Assembly: GCA_023014365.1 (NCBI GenBank)
Contig: JAEBUN010000022.1
Coordinates: forward strand, 434,001-498,000
Reading direction: 5' to 3'
DNA: 64,000 nucleotides
Source of the DNA: Lepiota brunneoincarnata
Lineage: Eukaryota; Basidiomycota; Agaricomycetes; Agaricales; Agaricaceae
Positions 17,958 to 53,772 of this stretch are shown here, one piece after another. Position 1 is the stretch's first letter, and each line of letters begins with the position of its first letter. Position numbers and translations under genes: made by a program. Under the pieces are notes generated by a model. The model was not told the DNA's origin and did not search any database. It was given only the letters and a program-made list of their open reading frames with translations.

Positions 17958-19258
17958 TGAAAAGGTAGAAACTGTCATAGGTTTTAATATAGATAGTGGG
18001 CTTGTTTTCACTAAGCTTAGCCGCAATTCGATAAGCTTAAGCTAATACAAGTGGAATGAGATAGATAATGAACAGTTTCGTCTTTTAGGGTGTTCTGGGG
18101 GTGCGTTCTGACAGCAAAATTCAAGAGAGTAGTGTTTTTAGAGGTTAACGAACAGCCATTGAAGTTATCTTAGCCATACGGTGCAACAATGAAAGGACAA
18201 TCCCTGTCAATTCAAAGTGCGGGGTCTCTGGTCTCTGGTCTCTGGTCTCTGAACTCTGGTCTCTGTCTCTGTCTCTGTCTCTAGCACTCTGGAACTCTAA
18301 ACTCTGAACTCTGGTCTCTGTCTCTGTCCCTGGGTTGGTCGATGACCGAAGAAATCACACTTAACGACGCACACTAAATAGCCCTCTGAAACCGTTCTTG
18401 ATCACGGCTTGCAGACTTGCGTGTGGAAGCGGGGGTGAGACCTCTCTCCTCTCCACGAACAAGTGCGACCGTATTTATATTGTTTAGATACATACGAGAG
18501 ATAGTAAATATGAAATAGAAAACAATAAGCTTAATTGTTACAGGCACTGTAGAACATTTTGGAAGGTTCGGCAGCATTTCTACCTCACCCTGGGTTATGG
18601 GTTTTTCTCTGATTAATGAATGGCAATCCAGCCAGACATGTTCCATGCTCATCTGCATTATTCTGCGTCCACACGAGCACGTTAAGTTTCCGGATCAATT
18701 ATGATCGGAATGTATAGCGGATGGACAATCCCTTGATCCGTTGTAATTAATCTTAGTTAAGCAGTATGCCGAAGTGCCGGGACCCACAAAGCACTTGTTA
18801 ATTAGGAGTCTTTGATATTTCTAGGGTTTTGGGCATTGGGTATTGCCTCCTGAACGTTGGACATTCTGTTCCGTGGTCCGGTCATCATTATTGAACTTGC
18901 TATAGACGTAATACGCCTGCGACAGCCGCTAGGTACATTCTTTTATGTTCAAACGCATTTGGGTTCATCAGAAAACTGCTCATAAGGTCCCTTGATGCAA
19001 CCGGGGTATACTCGATAGGCTATGTAGAGTCCTGAATCCCTCTGGAGAGCATTCTGATAGCTTGGTTCACTAAGCTTAGTGATAATGAACTGGTTTGAAC
19101 ATGTCCAAGGCTCGAGTATCCTCAATTCGGTCAAACTGGCTACTACGGGATATAGTACCAATCCTCTATAGAGTTCTTTAATGATATAGCCAATGATTCT
19201 ATGTAGAGAATCGTTCCGGAGTACGGAATTCATGTATAGGCGTGAAATTGGCATATCA
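17958..19258 (-). repeat. Solo LTR-A1 inserted in Gypsy-1 pol
   Basis: 1301 bp, TGATATGCC...CCTTTTCA on the minus strand. It is bounded by the 4-bp duplication CCGC (17954-17957 and 19259-19262, plus strand). It is almost collinear with the copies at 20290, 39449 and 52483. It contains four TAAGCTTA palindromes (18012, 18032, 18536, 19071), a GGTCTCT/GTCTCT array at 18221-18333, and a reading frame of about 95 codons at its 5' end (minus, near 19235-18949). No internal element sequence is attached, so it is a solo LTR left by LTR-LTR recombination. Confidence 0.88.
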
Positions 19259-20289: not shown

Positions 20290-21590
20290 TGAAAAGGTAG
20301 AAACTTTCGTAGGTTTTAATATAGATAGGGGGCTCGTTTTCACTAAGCTTAGCCGCTACTCGATAAGCTTAAGCTAATACAAGTGGAATGAGATAGATAA
20401 TGAACAGTTTCGTCTTTTAGGGTGTTCTGGGGGTGCGTTCTGACAGCAAAATTCAAGAGAGTAGTGTTTTTAGAGGTTAACGAACAGCCGTTGAAGTTAT
20501 CTTAGCTGTACGGTACAACAATGAAAGGACAATCCCTGTCAATTCAAAGCGCTGGGTCTCTGGTCTCTGGTCTCTGGTCTCTGAACTCTGGTCTCTGTCT
20601 CTGTCTCTGTCTCTAGCACTCTGGAACTCTAAACTCTGAACTCTGGTCTCTGTCTCTGTCCCTGGGTTGGTCGACGACCGAAGAAATCACACTTAACGAC
20701 GCACACTAAATAGCCCTCTGAAACCGTTCTTGATCACGGCTTGCAGACTTGCGTGTGGAAGCGGGGGTGAGACCTCTCTCCTCTCCACGAACAAGTGCGA
20801 CCGTATTTATATTGTTTAGATACATACGAGAGATAGTAAATATGAAATAGAAAACAATAAGCTTAATTGTTACAGGCACTGTAGAACATTTTGGAAGGTT
20901 CGGCAGCATTTCTACCTCACCCTGGGTTATGGGTTTTTCTCTGATTAACGAATGGCAATCCAGCCAGACGTGCTCTGTGCTCGGCTGCATTATTCTGCGT
21001 CCACGCGAGCGCGTTAAGTTTCCGGATCAATTATGATCGGAATGTATAGCAGATGGACAATCCCTTGATCCGTTGTAATTAATCTCAGTTAAGCAGAATG
21101 CCGAAGTGCCGGGACCCACAAAGCACTTGTTAATTAGGAGTCTTTGATGTTTCTAGGGTTTTGGGCATCGGGTATTGCCTCCCGAACGTTGGACGTTCTG
21201 TTCCATGGTCTGGTCATCATTATTGAACTCGCTATAGACGTAATACGCCTGCGACAGCCGCTAGGTACATTCTTTTATGTTCAAACGCATTCGGGTTCAT
21301 CAGAAAACTGCTCGTAAGGTCCCTGGATGCGACCGGGGTATACTCGATAGGCTATGTAGAGTCCTGAATCCCTCCGGAGAGCGTTCTGATAGCTTGGTTC
21401 ACTAAGCTTAGTGATAATGAGCTGGTTTGAACACTTCCGAGGCTCGAATATCCTCAGTTCGGTCGAACTGGCTACTACGGGATATAGTACCAATCCTCTA
21501 TAGAGTTCTTTAATGATATAGCCAATGATTCTATGTAGAGAATCGTTCCGGAGTACGGAATTCATGTATAGGCGTGAAATCGGCGTATCA
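20290..21590 (-). repeat. Solo LTR-A2 inserted in Gypsy-1
   Basis: 1301 bp, the same length as LTR-A1 and nearly identical over its length. Flanks are ACAG (20286-20289) and ACGG (21591-21594), a 4-bp duplication differing by one CpG transition. It carries the same four TAAGCTTA sites, the GGTCTCT array (about 20552-20665) and the 5' reading frame (21281 upward on the minus strand). Confidence 0.82.
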
Positions 21591-39448: not shown

Positions 39449-41169
39449 TGAAAAGGTGGAAACGTTCATGGATTTTTAATATGGATAGAGGGCTTGTTTT
39501 CACTAAGCTTAGCCGAAATTCAATAAGCTTAAGCTAATACAAGTGATATGAGATAGATAATGAACAGTTTTGTCTTTTAGGGTGTTCTGGGGGTGCATTC
39601 TGACAGTGAAATTCAAGAGAGTAGCTTTTTAGAGGTTAACAAACAGCCATTGAAGTTATCTTAGCTGTACAGTGCAACAATGAAAGGACAATCCCTGTCA
39701 ATTCAAAGTGCAGGGTCTCTGGTCTCTGGTCTCTGGTCTCTGAACTCTGTTCTCTGTCTCTGTCTCTGTCTCTAGCACTCTGGAACTCTAAACTCTGGAC
39801 TCTGTTCTCTGTCTCTGTCTCTGGGTTGGTTGATGACTGAAGAAATCACACTTAATGATGCACACTAAATAGTCCTTTGAAACCATTCTTGATCACAGCT
39901 TGCAGACTTGCATGTGGAAGCCAGGGTGAGACCTCTCTCTTCTCCACAAACTGTTACCCGGGTTAGGGGTTCACTCTTGAGTAGCATGGGGTTCGACACA
40001 GGATGTCTATACAGACTTGGTCCTGTCCTACTGAGCATGACTTGGAGACGACGGAGCACTATAAGTCCAGCCAGTTGTGGCAAAGAGGTATAGGAGGCAA
40101 GAACTTTATAACACTAAGATAAGGATACAAGGATATGATACAGTATCCTTATATACTACTATGTGTGGCTGTGCTCCTACTATATATATCTGGACCCAGG
40201 TAAGTGAGTCATATTCTTATCTATCTGAGTATAGATTGTTCTGATGGTACTTCTGATGGTTTCAGGATGACAGGTCTTCTATCTATTTATATACTTTGGG
40301 TGCTTCTGATAAGAGTTCCTTCCGGTGAGGCTTCTGATAAGGGGGTTTAAGGGGACTTCTGATAACACAAACAAGCACAATCGTATTTATATTGTTTAGA
40401 TACATACAAGAGATAGTAAATATGAATTAGAAAACAATAAGCTTAATTGTTACAGGTACTGCAGAATATTTTGGAAGGTTTGGCAGCATTTCTACCTTGC
40501 CCTGGGTTATGGGTTTTTCTCTGATTGACAAATAGCAATCCAGCCAGATGTGTTCCATGCTTGTCTGCATTATTCTGTGTCCATGCAAGCACATTAAGCC
40601 TCCAGATCAATTATGATCAGAATGTATGGCATATGGACAATCCCTTGATCCGTTGTAATTAATCTCAGTCAGGCAATATGCTGAGGTGCCAGGACCCACA
40701 AAGCACTTGTTAATTATGAGTCTTTGATATGTCTAGGGTTTTGGGCATCAGGTGTTGCCTCCTGAACATTGGATGTTCTGTTCTGTGGTCCAGTCATCAT
40801 TATTGGGCTCGCTATGGGCGTAATACACCTGCGACAGCTGCTATGTACATTCTTTAGGTTCCAACAAATCCGAGTTCATCAGAAAACTGCTTGTAAGGTC
40901 CCTGGATGTGACCGGAGTATACTTGATAGGCTATGTAGAGTCCAGAATCCCTCTGGAGAGCGTTCTGATAGCTTGGTTCACTAAGCTTAGTGATAATGAA
41001 CTGGTTTGAACACTTCTGAGGCTCGAATATCCTCAGTTCAGTCGAACTGGCTACTATGGGACATAGTACCAATCCTCTATAGGGTTCTTTAATGATATAG
41101 CCAATGATTCTATGTAGAGAATCATTCTGGAGTATGGAATTCATGTATAGGCGTGAAATTGGCGTATCA
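39449..41169 (-). repeat. LTR-A3, 3' LTR of Gypsy-2 (contains LTR-B2)
   Basis: 1721 bp because it contains the 426-bp solo LTR-B2 plus a duplicated CAAAC. Without these it is about 1290 bp and nearly identical to LTR-A4. TAAGCTTA occurs at 39504, 39524, 40438 and 40982. The LTR reading frame is at 41144-40854. Confidence 0.88.
39952..40377 (+). repeat. Solo LTR-B2 inserted in LTR-A3
   Basis: 426 bp, TGTTACCCGGGTTAGG...TTCTGATAACA, flanked by the perfect 5-bp duplication CAAAC (39947-39951 and 40378-40382). LTR-A4 shows the uninterrupted sequence at the same place. Confidence 0.92.
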
Positions 41170-41182
41170 TCTCCCCCTAACC
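41170..41182 (-). other. Polypurine tract of Gypsy-2
   Basis: On the minus strand GGTTAGGGGGAGA immediately precedes the LTR start TGATACGCC, fixing 39449-41169 as the 3' LTR. Confidence 0.8.
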
Positions 41183-41496
41183 AATTGCTGACTGTCCTCA
41201 GTCATTATCTCCTTCAAATTTGCAGTATCTGAGTCTCTCTAATGTGCTCTATGTTCTAGAATGTTCACCAGCTTCGAGAGTAGCATACTTTCACTAAGCT
41301 TATTCCAAAATGATGTCATGTCACTGAGTTTAACTGTATAGATCAACTTCTTGTTGCTATAGCCTACATTTTTATCTTGTTATTGGGTCTTTTAAAAGTC
41401 CCAAGGTCTCATTTCCTCTCTTTCGTTCTCCCTCTCACTTCTCACTTGTCTATTTTCATCTCAACTTTCAGTCTTCTATGCCCACCCACAGCAACA

Positions 41497-43526
41497 ATGG
41501 ACAGAAACCTGCACAGCAACAAGAGAGCTCCTCATGATGAAGATTCAGATTCTTCCTCTAGTAAGCAACATTCATTTTACTGTTGTCCTTGTCTTGCTAA
41601 CACTGCCTTCAGACTACACTGAGCCAAGGAGCACTCTTATGGCTCCAGGAAACACGTCTTCTCCTTCAATTGTGCAATGTACGTTGCATTTTTCCCCCAT
41701 TCTCATTGTCATCACTCATGTTTTCTCTGCTTTTAAGTCTCACTATTCACCTACCAGTGCGTCACAACCTCCTGCCTCAATGGGAACCACCAGCACTGCA
41801 TACTAGGAGGGCTAGAGGAGGGCAAGGAGCTCGAGGAGCTTGTGGAAATTGTCAGGTGGGTGTGGCAAGGGCCCCTCCTCCACCATACTCTCCACCCTGT
41901 GAACCAACTCCTCTGCCGGCCTCTCCCTTGGCTGTTCCAGTGCCAAGACACGTGATTTCCATTGCATTGTTGTGCAATCCAACTGACAAGTGCTCTGCCA
42001 GATTTTCCACAGAATCCTTGTCAGGTATCTCCATTGGCAGGCCCTCTGGTGGATTATCCACAGAGGCTTCGTTCAATTCAATGTCGCTGCCCCCTCTCGC
42101 CATCTCTCTGCGCACCCTGGATGGGGAAGACTTGCTGGTGCTCCCTCCCCTGGGTATTGCATCAGGTTTGGAGGTGCTGGGCCCTTCAACAAACTGGCCT
42201 TCTTCCCCTGTACTCTCTTCTGCTACTTCAACATGTAAGCTTAGTTGTTTTCACGATATATTTGTTCTTTCCACTGACTTCTGCTTTAGTGCGTATACCA
42301 GCTGCCCTTAAAGGCAAACAGAAGGCGAAATCATTGACGCTGCCCCCTCTCCCCTTATTCCTGGTGGGTTCTAACTTGTCATCACATTCTCCAGTCCCTG
42401 AGGTCTCTCAAGCTGACCTCTTTAAAATCTTTAGCTGGTCCTCTTCTCTGGATGGGCAACATGTGCTGGCTTCACCTAGGTGCCCAACACCATCACCACC
42501 TTGCTTGGCTGGCACTCCAGTCGGGTCTCCTGCAAGTGCCGTGGAGATTTTACCTTCTCCAGATTTGGAGCTCCTTCTGGAGCCTTTGCCTGCCCCTCAA
42601 GAACCAACTTTTGTTTTTCAAGACACGTTCTTAGCTTCTCCGACCCCCATCTTTTCTTGTTTGCCTAGCCCAGTGGTTCCAGAGATCCCTCAAGAGTCTC
42701 CTCATGCTGGCCCATTGCATCAAAAATGCATCCTTTCATCCAAGAAGAGTTCCAACACGCAGATGAAGAAATACGTTCCCCAAGTTCGCATTCGATGCTC
42801 TGAGGCCACCATTATTCAGGACCATGGATACTGCCACCCAGTCCCACTCTTTTGTGAGGACTTTCCTAGGCTGCTGGCAGCTAGCCAGCTTTCAGTACAT
42901 TCTCCAAGTTTTTTCATGTTTCCTTACTGAAGGTTTTGACATCTACCCCAGTATGTGCCACCTCGGTCTTGGTGTCCTTTCTGCACTGCTCGTAAGTTGG
43001 AGTGTGAGCCTCTGGGCAAGGGTAAGAAGTGTTGCAGCTGCGACCTCTATAATTACCCCTGCACCTTCGCAGACCATCTGCAAGTCTCAGCTGGCATTGC
43101 AAACACCCTAGTCATGTCTTCACTGACCAGTGAATACTGTAAGTTTCTCTGTTCACTATTTTTCTCTTTTCTTATTCTCTTTATTTTCTAGATCTGGCCA
43201 CTTTCATGCATGTTGTGTCCTCCAGCTTGGTCAGCTGGGAGGCAAACCATGTCACTTACAAGGCTTCGGCATTTCACCACCATCAGGTGGTTTATCAGTT
43301 CATCCAGGAAATGCAAGCTACCAGGATGGCCTTGGAAGGTAACGACGTGGCATTTGTCAAGATGGGGATGGCCAACTCCATTGAAGACATTGAGGCATTC
43401 TTTGAGTTTGCCAACAACTTTCCGGGAGTCCCAACATACAAAGAATTTGAGAAGCTCAAATCACTTCTCTTCCTTGCTTTCCCAATGACTCAGGATCTGG
43501 AGTCTATCTTGGAGGACTTAAACTAG
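41497..43526 (+). pseudogene. Antisense accessory gene 1 of Gypsy-2: Zn(II)2Cys6-spaced protein
   Basis: Multi-exon plus-strand gene opposite to pol. The start may be 41497 (MDRNLHSNKRAPHDEDSDSS, then donor at 41561). Middle exons near 41640-41690 and 41760-42234 are Pro/Ser-rich. The main exon is 42290-43138 and the last 43192-43526 (53-bp intron). In the main exon two TGAs (42928, 42937; CGA expected) precede PPRSWCPFCTARKLEC. From 42973 the cysteines are spaced C-x2-C-x6-C-x8-C-x2-C-x6-C with an extra Cys after the fourth, as in the Gypsy-1 antisense gene. The C-terminal exon is helical (YQFIQEMQATRMALEG, ending LESILEDLN, stop 43524). A TTTTAAAAG box and a CT-rich leader precede it. Likely a DNA-binding regulator; exact 5' exon joins are uncertain. 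Confidence 0.65.
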
Positions 43527-44124
43527 CCGCTCCCCTTTTATACCTTTATCTCTTGAATGTAACATCCTATTTTGTCCTGTAGATACATTCACAATTAAAG
43601 ATTCTTGTCTCTTGGTATCTTTCTGAGTTAAGCTTGAGGCCTTTCTGAAGACCCTGGGCTAAGCTAAGGCTTCCAGCTGCTTATATGCTCATTAGATATT
43701 TCTCTGATACTTCTGTGATGCCTATTGACCCCTCAACATGCCATGATCTGCAACGCATAGCAACCCAGCTCATCCACTCCGGTTTCCTTACAAGCCCAAA
43801 CCAGCCTGTCCATGATGTTCAGAAAAGCTCTTCATGAAAAAGCTTGCGTCAAACTGTCAAACTGAAGCACCCCTTGGGACCCATCTCCCCCCAGCCAAAT
43901 TGAAATTGGTGCCCTCACCGTTCCATCAGAATCCCTGTGCACACTGATAACCACAAGACCCTGGCAACATGTTACCGAATAAGGCAACTGTGGTTCAGCA
44001 AGTCTGTTGAAGGCTGGCTACTCAAGATTACAGGTTCCCTAGGCCTCCCAGGTCATAAGCTTAGGGTGGAGGGTGCTTTTCATCCACTTGTTATGATTCA
44101 TCATCACTGCCAACGGCCTTTTCT

Positions 44125-44130
44125 TATAAA
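44125..44130 (+). promoter_or_regulatory. TATA box of the second Gypsy-2 antisense gene
   Basis: TATAAA within TTCTTATAAAAGTGAGG, 52 bp upstream of the ATG at 44177. The spacing is nearly the same as for the Gypsy-1 antisense gene. Confidence 0.55.
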
Positions 44131-44176
44131 AGTGAGGGAGCAATGTCTCATTCTAGTAGCCACCCTTCGCAAGAAA

Positions 44177-45499
44177 ATGGCTTCTTCTATCCCCCATCTC
44201 CAGGTTGAGCTTGACGATCTCATCAGCAATGCCAAAGGTTGTCTTCAGCACCTGCAAAACGGCCAAGTTGCTTGTCCCCTCGTTGAGAAGGCTCTCCTTG
44301 TGTTCGACGCCCCTGGGGTATGTCTACTCTTTCCATGCTTCTCTCGCTGTTTCTCAATCATTTCTAGTCTGCTTATATTGAAGCATTATCAGAGGATAAT
44401 GAGGCTATCAGACTTCATGTCAACCAGGACTATGTCTTCCATATCCGCAAGCTCTATGAAATTTACCAAAACAACTACCATTTGTCTTATGAGATGCCCA
44501 TGATCTATAAGGCGCTCTCTGAATGCTGTAGCCACATTAATCGCATTTGTTCTGAAGAATCCCACAAATCCAGGACCAAAGAGGCTCAGAACCCATTGTC
44601 CTTTGCCGAAGGCTCTGCTGTCCCCAAGCACATAAGCTTAGCATTCTTTTGGCTCCAATCAGCTTCTCATGTATAAGCTTAGCCTCACAAAGGTCGCAAG
44701 GCCCCTATCTCTGCTGCTGTTGTGGTAGACACCAATACCAAGCTTGCTGAGAGTATGAACAGTGCCTCCAACTCCTGAGCAACTGGTGCTGACACGGTAA
44801 TCTAGCTGCTTCTCAACCCATAACATTGGCTGAGATCATCGCTCACCTTTAGGACATGATGGTCAATGAGGAGGTTTCTCAAGCTATTGTCGAAGAGGTT
44901 TGTGTAGTTTCGCCTCATTGCAAGCATCATTTGTCTACCTCCGATGTGGTGCGCCAGCTCCACTCCCCCTAACCACTGATTCTGACTCCCTCCCTCTTTA
45001 GAAGACCATCAAAAAGTCCTCATTGTCTAAAGGCACCATCCATCTTCTTCCCTATTGTCAAGTTCCCAATATGAACACTAAACACTGCTGTTATGCCCAG
45101 GCTGAACAGGTTCTAGCCAAAGCCAATGCCAATACTGCCAAGTGTGCCCATACCAAGTCTGTTTCCAATGAGTGCACCTTTGCAGGCTTATCCAGTGGGC
45201 AATTTCTCACTTCTATTCACTAAGCTTAACGGTTCTGACACTTATCCTGGGCAGCTCGTTTGCTCCAGGAACTCCAAAACCTCCTGTCTCACTCTCGCAA
45301 CAAGTATGAGTCCAAATCTTGTGGTGATGATGCTTGGTCAGTCAAATGCAACCTCAATTCGCTCAGCTGGGACTTCATCAAGGCTATTCCCTCGCTCGAA
45401 GCCAACTTAAAGAGGTTCCAATTCCTCATTCAAGAGCACATCCATCTCAAAAGCCTTTTGTGCAACCTTTCCAATTTGGACAAGTCCTCCCCCACTTAA
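44177..45499 (+). pseudogene. Antisense accessory gene 2 of Gypsy-2, unknown helical protein
   Basis: Starts MASSIPHLQVELDDLISNAK at 44177. GTATGT near 44317 and TTTCTAG near 44369 bound the first intron. The next exon reads AYIEALSEDNEAIRLHVNQD, FHIRKLYEIYQNNYHLSYEM and CCSHINRIC, up to about 44630. A third intron appears to end in the palindrome-containing acceptor TATAAGCTTAG at 44682. Further exons carry one TGA (CGA expected), a Cys-containing segment (KHCCYAQAEQVLAKANA), and a final exon ending at 45499, whose TAA stop lies in a TAAGCTTA. No family is recognised. High helix content suggests a structural or partner protein. Exon joins are provisional. Confidence 0.5.
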
Positions 45500-45575
45500 G
45501 CTTAACACTTTTACAGTCCCCAGGATAGTTTTCCTTCAATAAGTAGATAGTTCTGTCAACAATATCAGGTTTTTT

Positions 45576-46863
45576 CTATCCCTCCAACTCTTCTGGCTCC
45601 CATCTGTCACTAGGCTCATCCTCAGTAGTCTCCTCCAGGGTCTTCAGTCCCTCTGGCAACAGATCTAACAACTCTTGTAACTCTGGCGGCAATGGCATAT
45701 GTTTTCTGGCTAAGTAGGGAATTACTCTGAATGCTGCCACTTTATTTTGCCATACAGAACCATCCAACTCTGCCAGGATATAAGATCCTCCCTTTGATCT
45801 AGATATGACCACCATGGGTCCTAGATACCTGGGTTTCATCTTCCTGTCTGCTGAGCTCTCTATAGCTGGATTTCTCACTAATACTAAATCTCCTGGGCCG
45901 AAGCAATAATCTTTTATCTTATGTGCTGCTTGTCGTTCCATCTCCCAAGCCTTGCTAAGCTTAGTGTCTGAAACATGCTGACGCACCTCCTCAACATGCC
46001 GAACATGCTTTGCCAAAGCCTGAGCTCAGTATCCTATCAACTTGGCTGTGGTCAAGTACTTATTCGGTAGCTGTACTAGCCAAGTGGCCTCTTGGACATC
46101 CAGAGGTAGCGTCGGGTGTGCTCCAGTTACCAAAAAGTATGGGGAACACCCCATTCCTTTTCTAATGGTTATCCGATCTGCCCACATAACGTGCGGTAGG
46201 TGCCAATACCACTTTTTGACATCTCCATCTGTAGCTTTGTACAACATTTGCCACACATCCCAGTGGGGTCTCAATAATCCTGTTCGCTTTGGAATTGTAA
46301 GGAGATATTGTTACTCCCTTTATCCCATATTTTTCTTCCAGCCATCAAACAGCTTTCTTAAATGGAAAACCATTGTCCATGACAATCTTCACTATACAGC
46401 CCCATCGGAAAATGATATCTTCAAATAACCACTGTGCAATCGAACTAGCATTCTCTTTTCTCAAAGCTTTTGCCTCCATCCAGGATGACAGTCCACATCT
46501 TCCATGCACAATGTAACTACACCCATTAGAACTTGGTGTCATATGTAGCATATCCACATGTAGCACTTGGAATATTGAAGGTGTGGGCATTACTATTGGC
46601 GGCGTCTCGATGATCACCTTTTGCCATTGCTGGCATAGATGGCATGATTGCACATACCAAGCTACATCTCCTTCAACTTCCAGCCACCAGAACCTCTGCA
46701 TTATAAGCTTAGTGGTTGCGTATATTCCTCTGTGCCCTAGGAAGTTGTGGCTGGCTTGCAACATATACATATGCTGCTCCTTATCCACTACTAGCTGATG
46801 TTGACCACTAGGACTTGTCCTATACAGTCTCCCCTCTTCATCCAAGAAGAAATGCTCCACCAT
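45576..46863 (-). pseudogene. Gypsy-2 integrase
   Basis: ORF 46863-46345 carries the zinc-binding HHCC region (SHNFLGHRGIYATTKLIMQR ... SCHLCQQW) and the start of the core (VLHVDMLHMTPSSNGCSYIV, with VMDNGFPFKKAV as the second catalytic segment). After a frameshift, ORF 46274-45576 follows with one TGA (CGA expected). It contains SPYFLVTGAHPTLPLDV and a C-terminal [10 protein letters not shown]...[15 protein letters not shown]3-like segment, then an acidic tail. Unlike Gypsy-1 and Gypsy-3 there is no chromodomain. Broken, hence inactive. Confidence 0.78.
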
Positions 46864-47357
46864 ATACTCAAGCTTATGCAGATCCAGCTCATCTAAGCCT
46901 TCAGCTGTGCTACTGCCTCCTGTTTTCAGGAATTCCCTGACTTTGGGTATTCTTCCATCTTGTATTCATGCTGTATCTGTCCTATGCGATTCATCATATG
47001 CTTCCTCTATCTTGGTCAACTTTTCCTCTTCAAAATCTGGCACTAGCCTGACATCTGTCATTAAGCTTAGTACTTGTTGGTGGTTTTCTGGGCATGCTGG
47101 GTCTTCTATAACCCTAAGCTTAGCCTATTGTTCATCCAAGTACTCTTCCCAAGCTTGATCCAGCTCATACTCAAAATCATACACATCACGTGCCAGACCC
47201 TGGTTGAAGCCAGAGCGACTGTTAATCTCATCACAGAAGGCTTCCAAGGGTAACAGATCTGCAGCCCCCAATCTTCTTTGACCAACTCAAACTCCTCTCC
47301 CTCATCCTTGGATCCATTGTCAAAATGACAGGCTGTCTCATCACTGGGATAGTAATG

Positions 47358-49150
47358 TCATCTGGACAGTCCATCTGGCCCAAATGTCTTCCCTTCTTTG
47401 TGTACTAGCGTGAAGTGGAACGATCTAATGAAGTCCACCCAACGGTTTACAGTAGCGTTTGGGAGTTTTCCTGGGTTGTTTAACATCCCAAAGAGAAACT
47501 TCACGTCTGTTTCCACTACTAGATTTCTCGATCCCCACAATAAATATTTCTCCTGTTCCAGCACCATTCTTAAGCCGCATAGCTCTTGCTTGGGCTGAAA
47601 ATACCTCTGCTGTCTCTCATCCAATAATATTGACCCAAATTTTGCATAATGTATAAGCTTAGCATCTTCTACATCTCTCTGATATATATAGTATCCCACC
47701 GCCCTCCATGAGGTATCCATGGCTACTACTATGGGTTGTTTACTTGGAAATTTGGGGTTCCTGGTCAGGAAACAGTGCTGAATCGCATCTTTCAGCTCCT
47801 GCTGTGCTTTCCATTCATTTTCTCCCCATTCAAACTCTTGTCCCTTCTTAAGCTTTTCGTATAGAGGTGCAGCAATGGCTATGAACTTCAGGATATGATT
47901 CCTGCAGTGCATAGCTGTTCCTAGAAAACCCCTTAGCTTGGAGACATTCTTGCAGTCCCCCATCTTAATATCTTCCCAATGGTGTCTGTGGAAGGCAACC
48001 ATCCTTTATATGAGCATTCAAAATCCACTACGGTGATTTCATCAGTGCAGATAGTCATCTTGGGCCCAGAGAAGGTTCCCTCTACATATTTCATCCTCTG
48101 TAGAATCCTATTGACCATCTGCATGTGTTCCCATACAAATTGTTGGATCCCTGGGTTCTTTTTCAACGTCTCTTCAGTGCCATCTGGCAGCTTGTATCTG
48201 GTTTTTGGTCCTCTGATAGGTACATCATCTATGTACAGCATCATGTATTCTGGTATCTCACTGGCTAGGATCACTGTTACATCCTCATGAAATATAGGCA
48301 CTGAATTGGTCCATCCCATAGGTAGCGTTACTAAGTGCAGTGCTCCAAAAGGTGTTTGGAATGTTGTTAAGTCCTGAGATGACTCAGCTAACAATCGCTT
48401 GTCATACCCAACAGACAGGTCCAGAATGCCTCTGCAAGCTCTGCCTGCAAAGTGCATTGCCAAATCTTCCATTGCTGGCAGCAGCCCTGAATGCGCTATT
48501 GTTACTCTGTTCAGTGGTTCCAAGCTGTGTACCAGTCTCAAACTTTTTCCATCTTTCTTTACCACACAGAACCATCTGGATCTATAGGATGAGTTTGATG
48601 GCTTGTATACACCAGCACTAATCTTTCTTTTTATAATGGCACAGACTTCATCATATATTGCTGGTGGAATCAGAATGGGCTTTTCAACCCACGGAGTATG
48701 TTCTACCATCGGTATCTCGATCAGCAGGAAGAAATCCTCCCCAAAACATCCCTTTTCCTCATCTGTCCATGCAAATGCTTCCTCTTGAAGCATCATGACG
48801 TGGTGCATCAGCTTTCTTTCCTCTGGCCACAAGAAATCCCCTGCATGGGCTTCGTCCAGCTTAAGCTTACGCTCCTCAGTATATCTGCCTGTTGGGACAA
48901 ACTCTGGAGGATGCATGCTAAGCTCAGGCATTTCTGCCAGTGGGTCCCCTTTTATTTCTTGTTTTATCCTGAATCTCTCTGGTAAATCACCCAACACTGG
49001 CCTCACTTTTAAGGTGACTGGTTTATATTTCTTCCCAGCCAGGCATTGTACCATATCTCCATCATCTTCTTTGGTTTTGAAGACAGTTATTCCCTGGTCC
49101 TCAGTGCCCTGCGCATTGGCTATGCAACCTAGGCACAATAACGCCATCAC
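47358..49150 (-). pseudogene. Gypsy-2 reverse transcriptase and RNase H
   Basis: ORF 49150-47933 holds the RT: FCVVKKDGKSLRLVHSLEPL, LDLSVGYDKRLLAESSQDLT, TLPMGWTNSVPIFHEDVT, and the active site EYMMLYIDDVPIRGP (YIDD). ORF 48002-47358 overlaps it in another frame and holds the connection and RNase H domain: LRGFLGTAMHCRNHILKFI, AMDTSWRAVGYYIYQ, FQPKQELCGLRMVLEQ, VVETDVKFLFGML. The overlap indicates a frameshift mutation. The divergent RT box sequences (SVGYDKR, SNSSYRS) separate this lineage from the two chromoviruses in the window. Confidence 0.82.
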
Positions 49151-49473
49151 TTTATCTTCTTGTGGACAGTCCTCATCGTGTATGACTTGGTCAAGAACAT
49201 TAGCTGTAGCTCAGCCTCTGAGAAGCTTCCTTTTGCTAAGCTTAGTGTTTGTGCAATGACAGGGCCCTTCTCATCATCATAGTCTATTATACAAGCCACC
49301 TCTCCTTGTCCCTTAGTCAACTCATTGAGGTTTCTTGAAAATTTTGACTGTTTTCTCTAAGCTTAAGAGGATTACACTCTCCTCGAGCATAAGTTGGCAA
49401 CACAGCCCTTTCTCTAGTATTTGGGTCCATAATAACCAAGGTTTGCTCACCACTGGCGCTATTCCTGACTTCA

Positions 49474-50284
49474 CTAGCCAGTCATTACATCAAATGGCCA
49501 TCCCAGGAGTACTCGATATGTGGGATTATGAACAATGTGAACTTGCAAATAGATTGTGACTCCCCTGCAGGTAAAGCCTACATTCTTTGCCAGCCCACAA
49601 GTCTTTTCAACCTGCCCATTCGCACTCTGCAAATTAATCATAGTGTCTGGGTCCCAAGAAATTTGACATGCAATCACTGCTTCCTGACTCATGGATATGA
49701 TATGTGACCCACTATCTAGCAAGGCCTCTTCCTGCCAAATCCCATTTATCAAAGTTGGAACTACTCTCAACAGGTTTGCATTCTTTAGCAATAAACACTT
49801 GCCATCCCCTGTCTCTTCTGGGAAGTGACTCCAGGTACTGCATGATTGGATCCTGAGCTACCCAGGCTTGGATTGCTGAGCCTTCTCAGAGCACTGTATC
49901 ATACTTCTGAGAACCGTCTGCCAACTCCATTATCATGACCTGTACCTGCCCACCATTAAGTTCCATATGTTCTGTATCATCTTCCAAGGGTCCAACTCCT
50001 GCTATTAAGCTTTGATTTGTGGGTACCCGTTTTCTCATAATTCGCTCTCTATAAGTGTTCCTGTATAAATGTGACAATGCCAAGAGTTCTCCATGCAATA
50101 CTGAGGCTTCTCGCTTCAATACCCTGCTGAGTACTTCCTCAATATCAACATTCCTCTCTATAGGGGCCTGGTGCTTATATGCAGGTTCCTTCTTGGATGA
50201 TTCCATCCTTCTGACAGGCAGTGGTGGTATCTCAACGACCAGGTGCAGTAGTTTTACATTCCTATATGGTAATTCCCCTGCCAC
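49474..50284 (-). pseudogene. Gypsy-2 protease and preceding linker
   Basis: ORF 49791-49474 reads LINGIWQEEALLDSGSHIIS, with the LLDSGS active site, and VHNPTYRVLLGWPFDVMTG, the expected protease end. ORF 50284-49886 upstream (YRNVKLLHLVVEIPPLPVRR) links it to gag and has no recognised domain. Stops and frame changes break it. Confidence 0.7.
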
Positions 50285-50426
50285 TGCAGGCGTTGGTTTC
50301 TCTGTTGTCTGCCCTATTTCCTCATTTTCCGATTCTTCTGATCACTTGGAATCTGATGTGTCTCAGAAGTCTGTCCTCTGGTGAAGGTGACCTTCTTCTT
50401 CAGAGCCGGCTCCTTCCTCAAACCCT

Positions 50427-52094
50427 TTAGAAACCTGACTCCAAGTTCCAAGTCTTCGTACCACTCCTGGTGTCCAAATACTGGCTTGCTGAGGGCGTAC
50501 CATCTGTCAAACCACTAAGCTTAGCCTGTATCTGGGCCAATTGCTTGGCCAAAGACTGTATTTCAACATTATCATCCTTTCTGGTCATAAGCTTAACCTT
50601 TGGGGCACTCCCAGCATGGATGGCAGCTGTTTCCAACATTTCCATGCACTGCTTCAGATGGCAGATTTCTTCTTCCACTGGCAACCTTTGGTTTTCTGAC
50701 CTCGGGAATGCTTTCTGTGCAAACACTGCTGCCACTGGCACTTGTGGTAACTCAGGCTCAACCTCCGGCAGTTCTGGTACCTGAATGAAGAGTTGTCCCT
50801 TTGTTGCATAGTACTTTGCTACTTTCTCATTAATAGGCCCTTCTCCTTGAGGGATACTCAAGCCATCTCCCATATATATTTTGTTCCCTTTGACTCTAAT
50901 TTGGCCAGCTTGTTTATCTGCCTCCATGTCTGGGCAGAATAACCAACTATGCCCCAATAACCAACAGTAGAAACACTTGTGATCGGAAAGTGACCCTGCT
51001 GGCCCACTTCTGGTATTCCTCTGAGTGTGATTATAGCTGGCATGATTATGTCCATCCCTCACCAAACTCTCTAAGTATGATTTTAAAGTATGCCCCTGGA
51101 TATTCATGAGGTCCTTAAGCTCAGCAAGACTGCCCACCATCTGCAAGACTTCCTCCTGAAACTTCTGCTTTAAGCTTTGCAGCTCTTGCTTTACTATAGG
51201 GTCATAAGTCCCTGTTCCAGACATTGTAGGTGGATGGCTCATCAATGCTGAGTTCACCGGCCTTGAATCCTGATGAAGGGATCACATAAGTGTTTTGCCA
51301 ATCAAAATTTTGACAGCTTTATCCATGACGATCCTCCAATCATAGGGGTCCTCTTCATGTAAATCCTTTGCAGTTAGTGCTGACCCATCACTTGCAGTTC
51401 TATGTGCCCTGGTGATTGCTAATCTCGCATTGAGTACATCCTGGAACACAGAGTCCAGTGTGCTTGTAAATAACTTGACTAGCTCTCAGTTTGAGACTAC
51501 CGCTGGTGACTTCAGGCACTTCTCTGCTTCTAGAATGAATCACCTTTTGAAGTCCAAGACTTTATGCTCCTCATTCATCGCAATGCCTCTACTCTCTGCA
51601 CAGAGTTCCCTCAAGCATTGCACTGAGCCCTGCTTGGCTGCCACAGTCTTGGGATATTCTTTCTTTAATCTCTCTACGAAGCCTGTCCAGCTCCCTGCTA
51701 GGAACTCTGCAAAACTCATCCACTCTTCACAGATATCCTGGTCCACATATGACACTGCCCAATTTATCCTTTCTGCATCGTCCGTTGTCTTTGTTATCAT
51801 GAAGAGCCATTCAAGCATCCAGAGATAATTTCTCAAGGTCTGTGGTTTTGATGCATCCCATCTGGGAGCATTATTGCTAAAGGGAATTGGCATATGCTCA
51901 TGTCCCATTTTACTAGCTGTAGTCATTGTAGATGGTGTAGTTTGGTTTGTCTGTACAGTTGGAGTTGACTGTGATATCTGTGGTACCATAGAGGCACCAG
52001 GGGGGTTTGTATGAAATGAGTTTTGGTTTGTAAACGCTAAGCTTAGCATAGGAACAGTCTGACCATCCTGGCTTTTGGTGTGCAGAATATGCAC
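50427..52094 (-). pseudogene. Gypsy-2 gag with CCHC zinc knuckle
   Basis: ORF 52094-51540 is the capsid region (NNAPRWDASKPQTLRNYLWM, DDAERINWAVSYVDQDICEE, a Gypsy gag pattern). Three TGAs, each where CGA fits, lead into ORF 51257-50427. That frame has a coiled coil (IVKQELQSLKQKFQEEVLQM) and the knuckle CFYCWLLGHSWLFC (C-x2-C-x4-H-x4-C), then a long spacer. The end contains the TAAGCTTA site at 50516 in the codons for Lys-Leu-Ser. Confidence 0.78.
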
Positions 52095-52462
52095 TATGTT
52101 GCGAGCTGAGGCTGGAAGCCTTATAGTAATTCTAGAAGCAGTAGAGATTGGTGGTGTGACTTCTCTTGATACTGCAACTGCTAAACTGCTCGCTGTGCTT
52201 GCAGTTATAGAACTAGTAGGGTCTTTTCACTTTCGGGAGGTACTAGCAGTGATAAGGCCTTCAGAACCTTCTGGCTGATTAGAATTCTGAGTAGTTCTCT
52301 GTTTTGGGGGTCGACCTTCCTGAGACTGTTCTCAAAGGATGTTTTGGGTGACTTTACGGTCTTTGCTTGAACCTTTTTCTGCTTCGCAGGTGAAAGGCAG
52401 GCCAGTGTCCAAGTCTTTTGGTGTTTGTCTTGTGAAATTCAACTGAAAACCCCCCTCACAGT

Positions 52463-52482
52463 GGGCTCCAGATGAAAAGGTG
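52463..52482 (-). other. Probable primer-binding site of Gypsy-2
   Basis: Directly after the 5' LTR the minus strand reads TCTGGAGCCCACTGTGAGGG, where a tRNA-complementary site is expected. I could not assign the tRNA. Confidence 0.45.
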
Positions 52483-53772
52483 GAAATGTTTGTGGATTTT
52501 TAATATGGATAGAGGGCTTGTTTTCACTAAGCTTAGCCGAAATTCAATAAGCTTAAGCTAATACAAGTGATATGAGATAGATAATGAACAGTTTGTCTTT
52601 TAGGGTGTTCTGGGGGTGCATTCTGACAGTGAAATTCAAGAGAGTAGCTTTTTAGAGGTTAACAAACAGCCATTGAAGTTATCTTAGCTGTACAGTGCAA
52701 CAATGAAAGGACAATCCCTGTCAATTCAAAGTGCAGGGTCTCTGGTCTCTGGTCTCTGGTCTCTGAACTCTGTTCTCTGTCTCTGTCTCTGTCTCTAGCA
52801 CTCTGGAACTCTAAACTCTGGACTCTGTTCTCTGTCTCTGTCTCTGGGTTGGTTGATGACTGAAGAAATCACACTTAATGATGCACACTAAATAGTCCTT
52901 TGAAACCATTCTTGATCACAGCTTGCAGACTTGCATGTGGAAGCCAGGGGTGAGACCTCTCTCTTCTCCACAAACAAGCACAACCGTATTTATATTGTTT
53001 AGATACATACAAGAGATAGTAAATATGAAATAGAAAACAATAAGCTTAATTGTTACAGGTACTGCAGAATATTTTGGAAGGTTTGGCAGCATTTCTACCT
53101 TGCCCTAGGTTATGGGTTTTTCTCTGATTGACAAATGGCAATCCAGCCAGATGTGTTCCATGCTCGTCTGCATTATTCTGCATCCACGCAAGCGCATTAA
53201 GCCTCCAGATCAATTATGATCAGAATGTATGGCATATGGACAATTCTTTGATCCGTTGTAATTAATCTCAGTCAGGCAATATGCCAAGGTGCTAGGACCC
53301 ACAAAGCACTTGTTAATTATGAGTCTTTGATATGTCTAGGGTTTTGGGCATCAGGTGTCGCCTCCTGAACATTAGACATTCTGTTCTGTGGTCTGGTCAT
53401 CATTATTGGGCTTGCTATGAACATAATACACCTGCGACAGCCGCTATGTACATTCTTTAGGTTCCAACAAATCCGAGTTCATCAGAAAACTGCTCGTAAG
53501 GTCCCTGGATGCGACTGGAGTATACTCGATTGGCTATGTAGAGTCTGGAATCCCTCCAGAGAGCATTCTGATAGCTTGGTTCACTAAGCTTAGTGATAAT
53601 GAGCTGGTTTGAACACTTCCGAGGCTTGAATATCCTCAGTTTGGTTGAACTGGCTCCTCTGGGACATAGTACCAATCCTCTATAGGGTTCTTTAATGATA
53701 TAGCCAATGATTCTATGTAGAGAATTGTTCCAGAGTATGGAATTCATGTATAGGTGTGAAATTGATGTATCA
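52483..53772 (-). repeat. LTR-A4, 5' LTR of Gypsy-2
   Basis: 1290 bp, near-identical to LTR-A3 outside the LTR-B2 insertion. TAAGCTTA occurs at 52528, 52548, 53041 and 53585, the same four relative positions as in LTR-A1 and A2. Its reading frame is at 53747-53457. Confidence 0.88.

Follow-up and report, generated by a model that had tools for sequence, protein, structure and literature searches.

What keeps one exact 8-bp palindrome, TAAGCTTA, scattered along the entire length of a retrotransposon? The question is raised by a 64,000-nucleotide stretch of the Lepiota brunneoincarnata genome (GenBank assembly GCA_023014365.1, contig JAEBUN010000022.1, positions 434,001 to 498,000 of the forward strand; hereafter, the window), in which the palindrome is carried by a Ty3/Gypsy long terminal repeat (LTR) retrotransposon on the minus strand at 39449–53772, a member of what we call family A. 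Our analysis lends good support to selection on the palindrome as a DNA site. As to its use, we give a probability of about 0.5 to a distributed site that is most likely read by the element's own gene A protein, for activation of the element or against its silencing.

Excess of the palindrome in one Gypsy family

The window contains 34 copies of TAAGCTTA; 0.63 would be expected, and the observed number was not reached in any of 100 shuffles. Among them, 26 lie within 39504–53592 (8 in the element's two LTRs and 18 internal), exactly as counted in a preliminary description of this DNA, which had put the expectation below one. The remaining 8 belong to two further family LTRs (17.9–19.3 kb and 20.3–21.6 kb), four each at matching places. 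All 34 could be assigned to family A, so the earlier claims that each LTR keeps four sites at the same relative places, and that the window has none outside this family, both hold.

In the element interior (11.3 kb), the 18 copies compare with 0.18 expected under a first-order Markov model and are separated by a mean gap of 632 bp; the next eight over-represented 8-mers overlap the same site. This strong excess had no counterpart in five other window segments tested, where no 8-mer palindrome was comparably enriched (best: 3 vs. 0.15 expected). Across the whole genome, TAAGCTTA occurs 5370 times and the reversed control string 842 times, and the first 100 occurrences listed, which cover 0.88 Mb on contig C1, include just 4 without a neighbor within 3 kb. 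The 8-mer is thus not dense in unrelated DNA, either there or in the rest of the window, which contains none.

The sequences flanking the sites are mutually unrelated. An outer G or C was found on at least one side in 19 of the 26 sites, and 16 of the 26 read TAAGCTTAG on the plus strand, in line with the earlier remark that most copies are extended. Sites with one mismatch number 8 in the element interior, against about 4.8 expected; such scarcity of near misses suggests that the full, exact 8 bp is what is kept. AAGCTT alone was rejected as the conserved unit, since some AAGCTT outside the 8-mer are variable.

Selection on the sites at the DNA level

Conservation was tested within this one genome, and the retention counts include the window's own copy. 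In the pol region, 244 of 252 site-copies from 30 loci were exact; 48 of 51 were kept in the accessory region between pol and the 3' LTR (10 loci taken, L032 being dropped as it gave no alignment to the element), and 49 of 50 in 13 LTRs (reference LTR of the window included). Other copies in this genome therefore do not lack the sites. Within the motif, the minor-base frequency in the pol region was 0.0037; it was 0.021 in CpG-free 8-mers matched for composition (P = 0.0013) and 0.045 outside the motif.

Comparisons between subfamilies, with CpG columns excluded and a base-matched expectation, were the most informative. Between the window copy and the C24 copy, which are 12.5% diverged, 17 of 18 sites were shared and 1 of 144 motif bases had changed against 11.5 expected (P = 1.3e-4), so the sites stayed constant while the flanks diverged, the pattern that the preliminary description had proposed to look for. 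No motif base had changed in the C15 copy (11/11 sites; 0/88 bases vs. 7.2 expected, P = 7e-4), the C17 copy (8/8 sites; 0/64 vs. 6.6, P = 0.0014), or L037 (7/7 sites; 0/56 vs. 4.5, P = 0.011). These P values are not to be multiplied, because all comparisons share the window copy. Five closer copies offered low power (P = 0.056–0.67), and one of them, L034, had lost one of six sites. Overall divergence of the nine copies compared was 8–15%, or 3–10% without CpG columns. Turnover was also seen: in the C24 copy, the site at 48862 was lost by a silent change (to TAAGCTTG), and an exact site lies 57 bp off, at 48919; L027 likewise has one there (its position 1786), whereas the window reads TAAGCTCA.

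Family copies (e.g., L031–L048) differ largely at CpG positions, a pattern that resembles methylation damage.

The sites within gag-pol occur in two codon phases, xxT-AAG-CTT-Axx (K-L) and xTA-AGC-TTA (S-L), as reported earlier, and the phase that would give a stop codon is never used. Seven pol sites in the open frame of copy L019 were compared with 240 collected relatives, and 57 of 975 site comparisons showed the exact dipeptide (K-L or S-L). Agreement with relatives averaged 0.33 for the 14 forced residues, compared with 0.50 for the remaining K, L, and S residues (P = 0.043) and 0.54 for residues overall. The strongest case is 48862, where the element has L and, of 215 relatives, 113 have E and 67 have D. 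At 49237, the element has S and 81 of 117 relatives have P; the next residue there is mostly K or R in relatives. Two sites agreed better with relatives (46869, exact in 26 of 120; 46704, L in 112 of 120), indicating that a protein cost is not universal across sites. Constraint on the sites, together with forced residues that are mostly unlike those of relatives, bears out the earlier view that the nucleic acid, and not a protein motif, is kept.

Could the palindrome act in RNA, through packaging or pairing of genomic RNA by self-complementary loops, or in splicing? A self-complementary 8-mer could pair between molecules, and inferred introns contain four sites, of which three are at an intron end. 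The first description of the site in the donor (GTAAGCTTAG, 42235), of that in the acceptor (end at 44682), and of that over a stop codon (45497) was correct in each case. Nevertheless, splicing offers no role for the sites in gag-pol, LTRs, and promoters. Predicted unpairedness at 18 sites was 0.47 in sense RNA, compared with 0.54 in 200 matched control 8-mers (P = 0.10), and sites in antisense RNA were more paired than their controls (0.39 vs. 0.55; 18 sites, 200 controls, P = 0.004). As the sites are not unusually unpaired, a DNA site is favored, DNA and RNA not having been told apart in the preliminary description, and we regard a role in RNA as very unlikely.

Antisense genes and a candidate reader

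Two spliced genes, A and B, lie on the strand opposite to gag-pol, between integrase and the 3' LTR. Changes at first, second, and third codon positions between L037 and L047 numbered 18/19/33, 25/29/74, 6/0/12, and 6/5/35 in four exon stretches; gene A is coding and under purifying selection by codon position. It also carries a cysteine cluster, whose six Cys were present in all four copies compared (the window and three others; the window copy has one extra Cys). Zn2Cys6 clusters have the spacing C-x2-C-x6-C-x5to12-C-x2-C-x6to8-C, and that of gene A (x2, x6, x8, x2, x6) fits this pattern. Pfam Zn_clus matched all four gene A members (best E = 0.0017). With a model of the cluster, all nine Foldseek matches were Zn2Cys6 proteins (seven entries, E = 1.3–8), as were all nine rows listed by a second aligner; they include GAL4, PUT3, HAP1, and AlcR, as well as 1cld and Pho7, which we take to belong to the same class. 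On these predictions, the product of gene A would be a Zn2Cys6-type protein.

Genome-wide, 226 first-look candidates for gene A were found, of which the best 150 were scored. A protein search with the exon of gene A, for which only proteins of about 107–341 amino acids were eligible, gave 0 of 383 candidates at E <= 0.01; scans of viral and bacterial contigs confirmed no relatives, and matches to sequences of solved structures were set aside as chance. The exons of gene B that were scanned contained no known domain and no DNA-binding domain.

We propose that TAAGCTTA would be a DNA address across the whole element, recognized by a dimeric DNA-binding protein, a mode of binding that an exact palindrome suits, and that the antisense-encoded, Zn2Cys6-type product of gene A would be its most likely reader. 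Bound along the LTRs, the promoters of A and B, introns, and exons, protein A may switch on promoters, prevent silencing of the copy, or both; host genes, being without site clusters, would be unaffected. We infer binding by protein A, its dimeric mode, and an outcome of activation or anti-silencing. Sites along the whole length, including exons, suggest a task that needs the entire copy more than control of a single promoter, and a role in the activity of the whole copy is suggested by analogy with the VANC/VANDAL precedent discussed below.

Several observations weigh against this reading. Zn2Cys6 proteins usually contact CGG triplets and TAAGCTTA contains none, and the gene B product might be the binder instead. 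The Zn_clus matches miss the cut-off of 21 bits (bits shown: 12.5, 15.6, and 17.2, the last for member 1), and a better Pfam E-value belongs to a different zinc domain, zf-ChsH2 (8.1e-5; 22.8 bits vs. a cut-off of 23.2), which covers residues 1–17 only. The fold matches are individually weak, and the mean predicted local distance difference test (pLDDT) score was 48 for the model and 46.8 for a second, 62-residue model. Regarding the sites, 1 of 32 motif columns had changed in LTRs against 3.7 expected (P = 0.12). Within one age class, 6 changed motif columns compare with 12.2 expected (P = 0.04, marginal), or with 11.8 under trinucleotide matching (P = 0.05); copies of the same age would differ largely through decay after insertion. 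The C24 protein still has K-L at 48862 though the site is gone, suggesting that this residue may since have acquired a separate use. Finally, CpG decay was not lower near sites (Spearman's rho = 0.01, P = 0.83; 227 CpG-prone positions), so no footprint of local demethylation is visible in this indirect test.

A sister family without the palindrome

Two copies of a sister Gypsy family, on contigs C1 (L041+L042, C1:680500-697000) and C17 (L043+L044, C17:772500-787500), are 98% alike and 65–70% identical to family A in pol DNA; two more, on C36 and C26, were examined in part only. The C17 sister copy has a recognizable gene A' (34% identity, E = 4.6e-4) and one exon of a gene B' (55%, E = 1e-6). 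The same antisense pair therefore looks older than the family split, and the accessory genes look more diverged than pol between families. The sister zinc cluster is degenerate: in the one copy considered, Cys 1 is replaced by Tyr, and the stretch separating Cys 2 from Cys 3 differs.

This pairing also bears on an alternative in which the sites are read by the gene B product, alone or complexed with protein A, and the zinc cluster serves another purpose. In its favor, B stands beside A in both family A and the sister copy, with one exon conserved. However, the B exons scanned hold no DNA-binding domain, whereas A has the signature of one, and we consider this arrangement quite unlikely.

Apart from an inserted family A LTR, the C1 and C17 sister copies contain TAAGCTTA once each; a stretch of C36 has seven, five of them in family A sequence. 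These counts speak to a further possibility, namely, that a host DNA-binding protein (for example, an activator, an insulator such as Su(Hw) on Drosophila gypsy, or a replication or repair factor) reads the sites. The sites here are selected at the DNA level, and the assignment of a reader within the element is itself conjectural. Nevertheless, outside family A the 8-mer is at or below background, judging by the 4 isolated sites among the first 100 occurrences listed, over 0.88 Mb of C1; the two sister copies examined whole have just one site each; and the dispersed layout within coding exons is unlike an insulator cluster. We therefore judge a host reader unlikely.

Where the two families could be aligned, the sister family lacked the motif at five of five sites. 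At 45956 and 49358, the alignment has 2-base gaps within the motif, and at the other three it has none, so at least three sites arose by point changes. This is relevant to the view that the palindrome has no function, having been spread by gene conversion, by a mutation bias, or by a tiny unit that inserted repeatedly, and being shared among copies by descent. The copies are indeed related, the constraint within one age class is marginal, and two of the five alignable sites have the 2-base gap. Against this stand the unrelated flanks, the three gap-free sites, conservation across subfamilies far above the base-matched, CpG-free expectation, and the rarity of the forced residues in relatives; an absence of function seems to us highly improbable.

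The sister element may have a motif of its own. Its 14.5 kb contain 16 copies of the candidate GTTANCTA, where 2.07 would be expected and none of 500 shuffles gave more than 7. The candidate is also the best one-gap 8-mer of the sister element, with −log10 P of 9.2 whereas the top score was 6.2 among 60 shuffles and 5.1–7.5 in three window segments. Other DNA, from the window, likewise has a mild excess of the word (4, 2, and 3 vs. 1.13, 0.51, and 1.28), and two of its sites could be splice branch points, being placed within inferred introns of gene B'. Retention of GTTANCTA was not above background (5 of 8 testable sites in C36 at 9% divergence; 10 of 11 in C26 at 4.5%), and expectation-maximization motif models of the sister element did not converge on it. 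Taken together, the sister findings would fit a joint change of reader and address. In its fullest form, the proposal is a whole-length self-recognition code, inscribed even where it displaces residues usual in relatives and read by the element's own antisense zinc-cluster protein to mark and de-silence its copies, of which the sister family would have changed both the reader and the address (to GTTANCTA) in co-evolution; we put this forward tentatively and consider it rather unlikely as a whole.

Relation to known systems

VANDALs are Mutator-like DNA transposons, whereas the carrier here has LTR retrotransposon enzymes. According to the passages available from two accounts of VANC/VANDAL anti-silencing in Arabidopsis, a protein encoded by the transposable element acts together with a short motif over-represented in that element (PMC5735166; PMC10398659). 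One of these accounts, in its relevant sections, gives different motifs for related VANC families, YAGTATTAY for VANC21 and AGTTGTCC/AC for VANC6, with effects that reach the entire element (PMC5735166). To the extent of those passages, the likeness lies in a putative binder encoded by the element and a family-specific, over-represented short motif; the difference is that VANC motifs are tandem repeats in non-coding parts, whereas TAAGCTTA sites are single and dispersed, also in coding exons. Should protein A recognize the 8-mer, the element, an LTR retrotransposon, would have arrived independently at a VANDAL-like pairing of family-specific protein and address. Such a pair would benefit the element and affect the host little, and the element would offer a clear example of a polymerase gene whose protein sequence has been shaped by a DNA signal.

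The placement of genes A and B also has parallels. Excerpts of two papers describe antisense open reading frames (aORF-3R) between pol and the 3' LTR in most copies of plant and fungal Ty3/Gypsy elements such as Retand, Grande, RIRE2, and Boty of Botrytis (PMC7264820; PMC11963269). The same excerpts give predicted DNA binding for the TRP28 protein of Retand; for the antisense genes they propose a regulatory role and state the function as unknown. Genes A and B share with these aORF-3R both the antisense orientation and the location between pol and 3' LTR. They differ from Retand as portrayed there in that gene A has a Zn2Cys6-like cluster instead of TRP28 and a candidate target, an exact 8-mer, throughout the element; the open-access texts searched, in the portions covered, hold no report of such a target. 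Among the open-access matches listed for TAAGCTTA itself, no title names a fungal element, and the one transposon is LINE-1. In gene A, such an antisense gene has both a DNA-binding signature and an obvious candidate target.

Gene A resembles fungal Zn2Cys6 regulators (GAL4, PUT3, PPR1, HAP1, and AlcR) in its Cys spacing and, tentatively, in its predicted local fold, and differs in being borne by a retrotransposon, in the lack of CGG from its presumed site, and in missing the Pfam cut-off. If protein A reads the site, a sharp binding optimum would be expected at CTAAGCTTAG, over single-base variants and GTTAACTA.

Architecture of the element

The features are collected in Table 1. Within pol, the Pfam matches RT_RNaseH (E = 1.3e-10) and Integrase_H2C2 (E = 7.7e-14) are above their cut-offs, and RVT_1 (E = 5.7e-4) is below its own. 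Reverse transcriptase and RNase H are followed by integrase in the same direction, which is the Ty3/Gypsy order. The two LTRs are 4.2% apart over their aligned part, both have TG..CA ends, and the purine tract GGGGGAGA lies directly inside the 3' LTR. The flanks of the window copy show no 5-bp target-site duplication (ATCGG before and TTGGG after the element), so this copy may be a recombinant.

Relatives numbered 1050 for reverse transcriptase (E <= 0.001) and 136 for integrase (at the threshold used), and the organisms among the matches listed include Grifola, Agaricus, Cyclocybe, and Lentinula, all mushroom-forming fungi. With pol DNA, 204 first-look candidates were found in the genome; the best 40 were scored, and the other 39 are 92–95% identical to the window copy.

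Table 1. Features of the family A element and of two further family LTRs in the window, with copies retaining each site where counted
Feature	Position	Strand	Remarks
Further family LTR	17958..19258		Sites 18012, 18032, 18526, 19071
Further family LTR	20290..21590		Sites 20344, 20364, 20858, 21403
3' LTR	39449..41169	-	TG..CA ends; sites 39504, 39524, 40438, 40982
TAAGCTTA upstream of gene A	41295..41302		195 bp before ATG; 5/5 copies
Gene A	41497..43526	+	Antisense, spliced (introns inferred); carries zinc cluster
TAAGCTTA in gene A intron donor	42236..42243		GTAAGCTTAG at 42235; 4/4 copies
Zn2Cys6-like cluster of gene A	42952..43137	+	C-x2-C-x6-C-x8-C-x2-C-x6-C
Near-site TAAGCTTG 3' of gene A	43629..43636		Exact TAAGCTTA in C17 and C24 copies
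TAAGCTTA upstream of gene B	44056..44063		114 bp before ATG; 7/7 copies
Gene B	44177..45499	+	Antisense, spliced (introns inferred); ends with stop codon TAA within site 45497
TAAGCTTA at donor end of gene B intron	44633..44640		7/8 copies
TAAGCTTA at acceptor end of same intron as 44633	44674..44681		7/8 copies
TAAGCTTA in inferred gene B intron	45221..45228		8/9 copies
TAAGCTTA over gene B stop codon	45497..45504		10/10 copies
Integrase part of pol	45576..47357	-	Sites 45956, 46704, 47062, 47115; lost site 46869
TAAGCTTA in integrase	45956..45963		K-L phase
TAAGCTTA in integrase	46704..46711		K-L phase; 20/20 copies
Site lost in window copy (CAAGCTTA)	46869..46876		Exact in 21 other alignable copies (21/22)
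TAAGCTTA	47062..47069		S-L phase; 22/22 copies
TAAGCTTA	47115..47122		K-L phase; 22/22 copies
Protease/reverse transcriptase/RNase H of pol	47358..49857	-	Frames broken here; sites 47654, 48862, 49237, 49358
TAAGCTTA in RNase H	47654..47661		K-L phase; 26/27 copies
TAAGCTTA in reverse transcriptase	48862..48869		K-L phase; 30/30 copies
TAAGCTTA	49237..49244		S-L phase; 28/30 copies
TAAGCTTA	49358..49365		28/30 copies
gag, second open piece	50427..51281	-	Sites 50516, 50588 in K-L phase
TAAGCTTA in gag	50516..50523		24/25 copies
TAAGCTTA in gag	50588..50595		23/24 copies
gag, first open piece	51540..52226	-	Site 52038 in S-L phase
TAAGCTTA in gag	52038..52045		S-L phase
5' LTR	52473..53772	-	Sites 52528, 52548, 53041, 53585

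The site upstream of gene B (44056) is about 60 bp upstream of TATAAAAG (44125). At the partner donor of the intron with sites 44633 and 44674, the window copy reads AT instead of GT, and L037 has GT.

The 3' LTR alone has an insertion of about 420 bp at 39952–40370. Similar sequence was found at C24:574623-575043 and beside the C1 sister element, so the insertion resembles a member of a small repeat family placed within the LTR. Imperfect short CTCTGG/CTCTGT repeats in the LTRs (e.g., 39720–39830) are the source of other frequent words.

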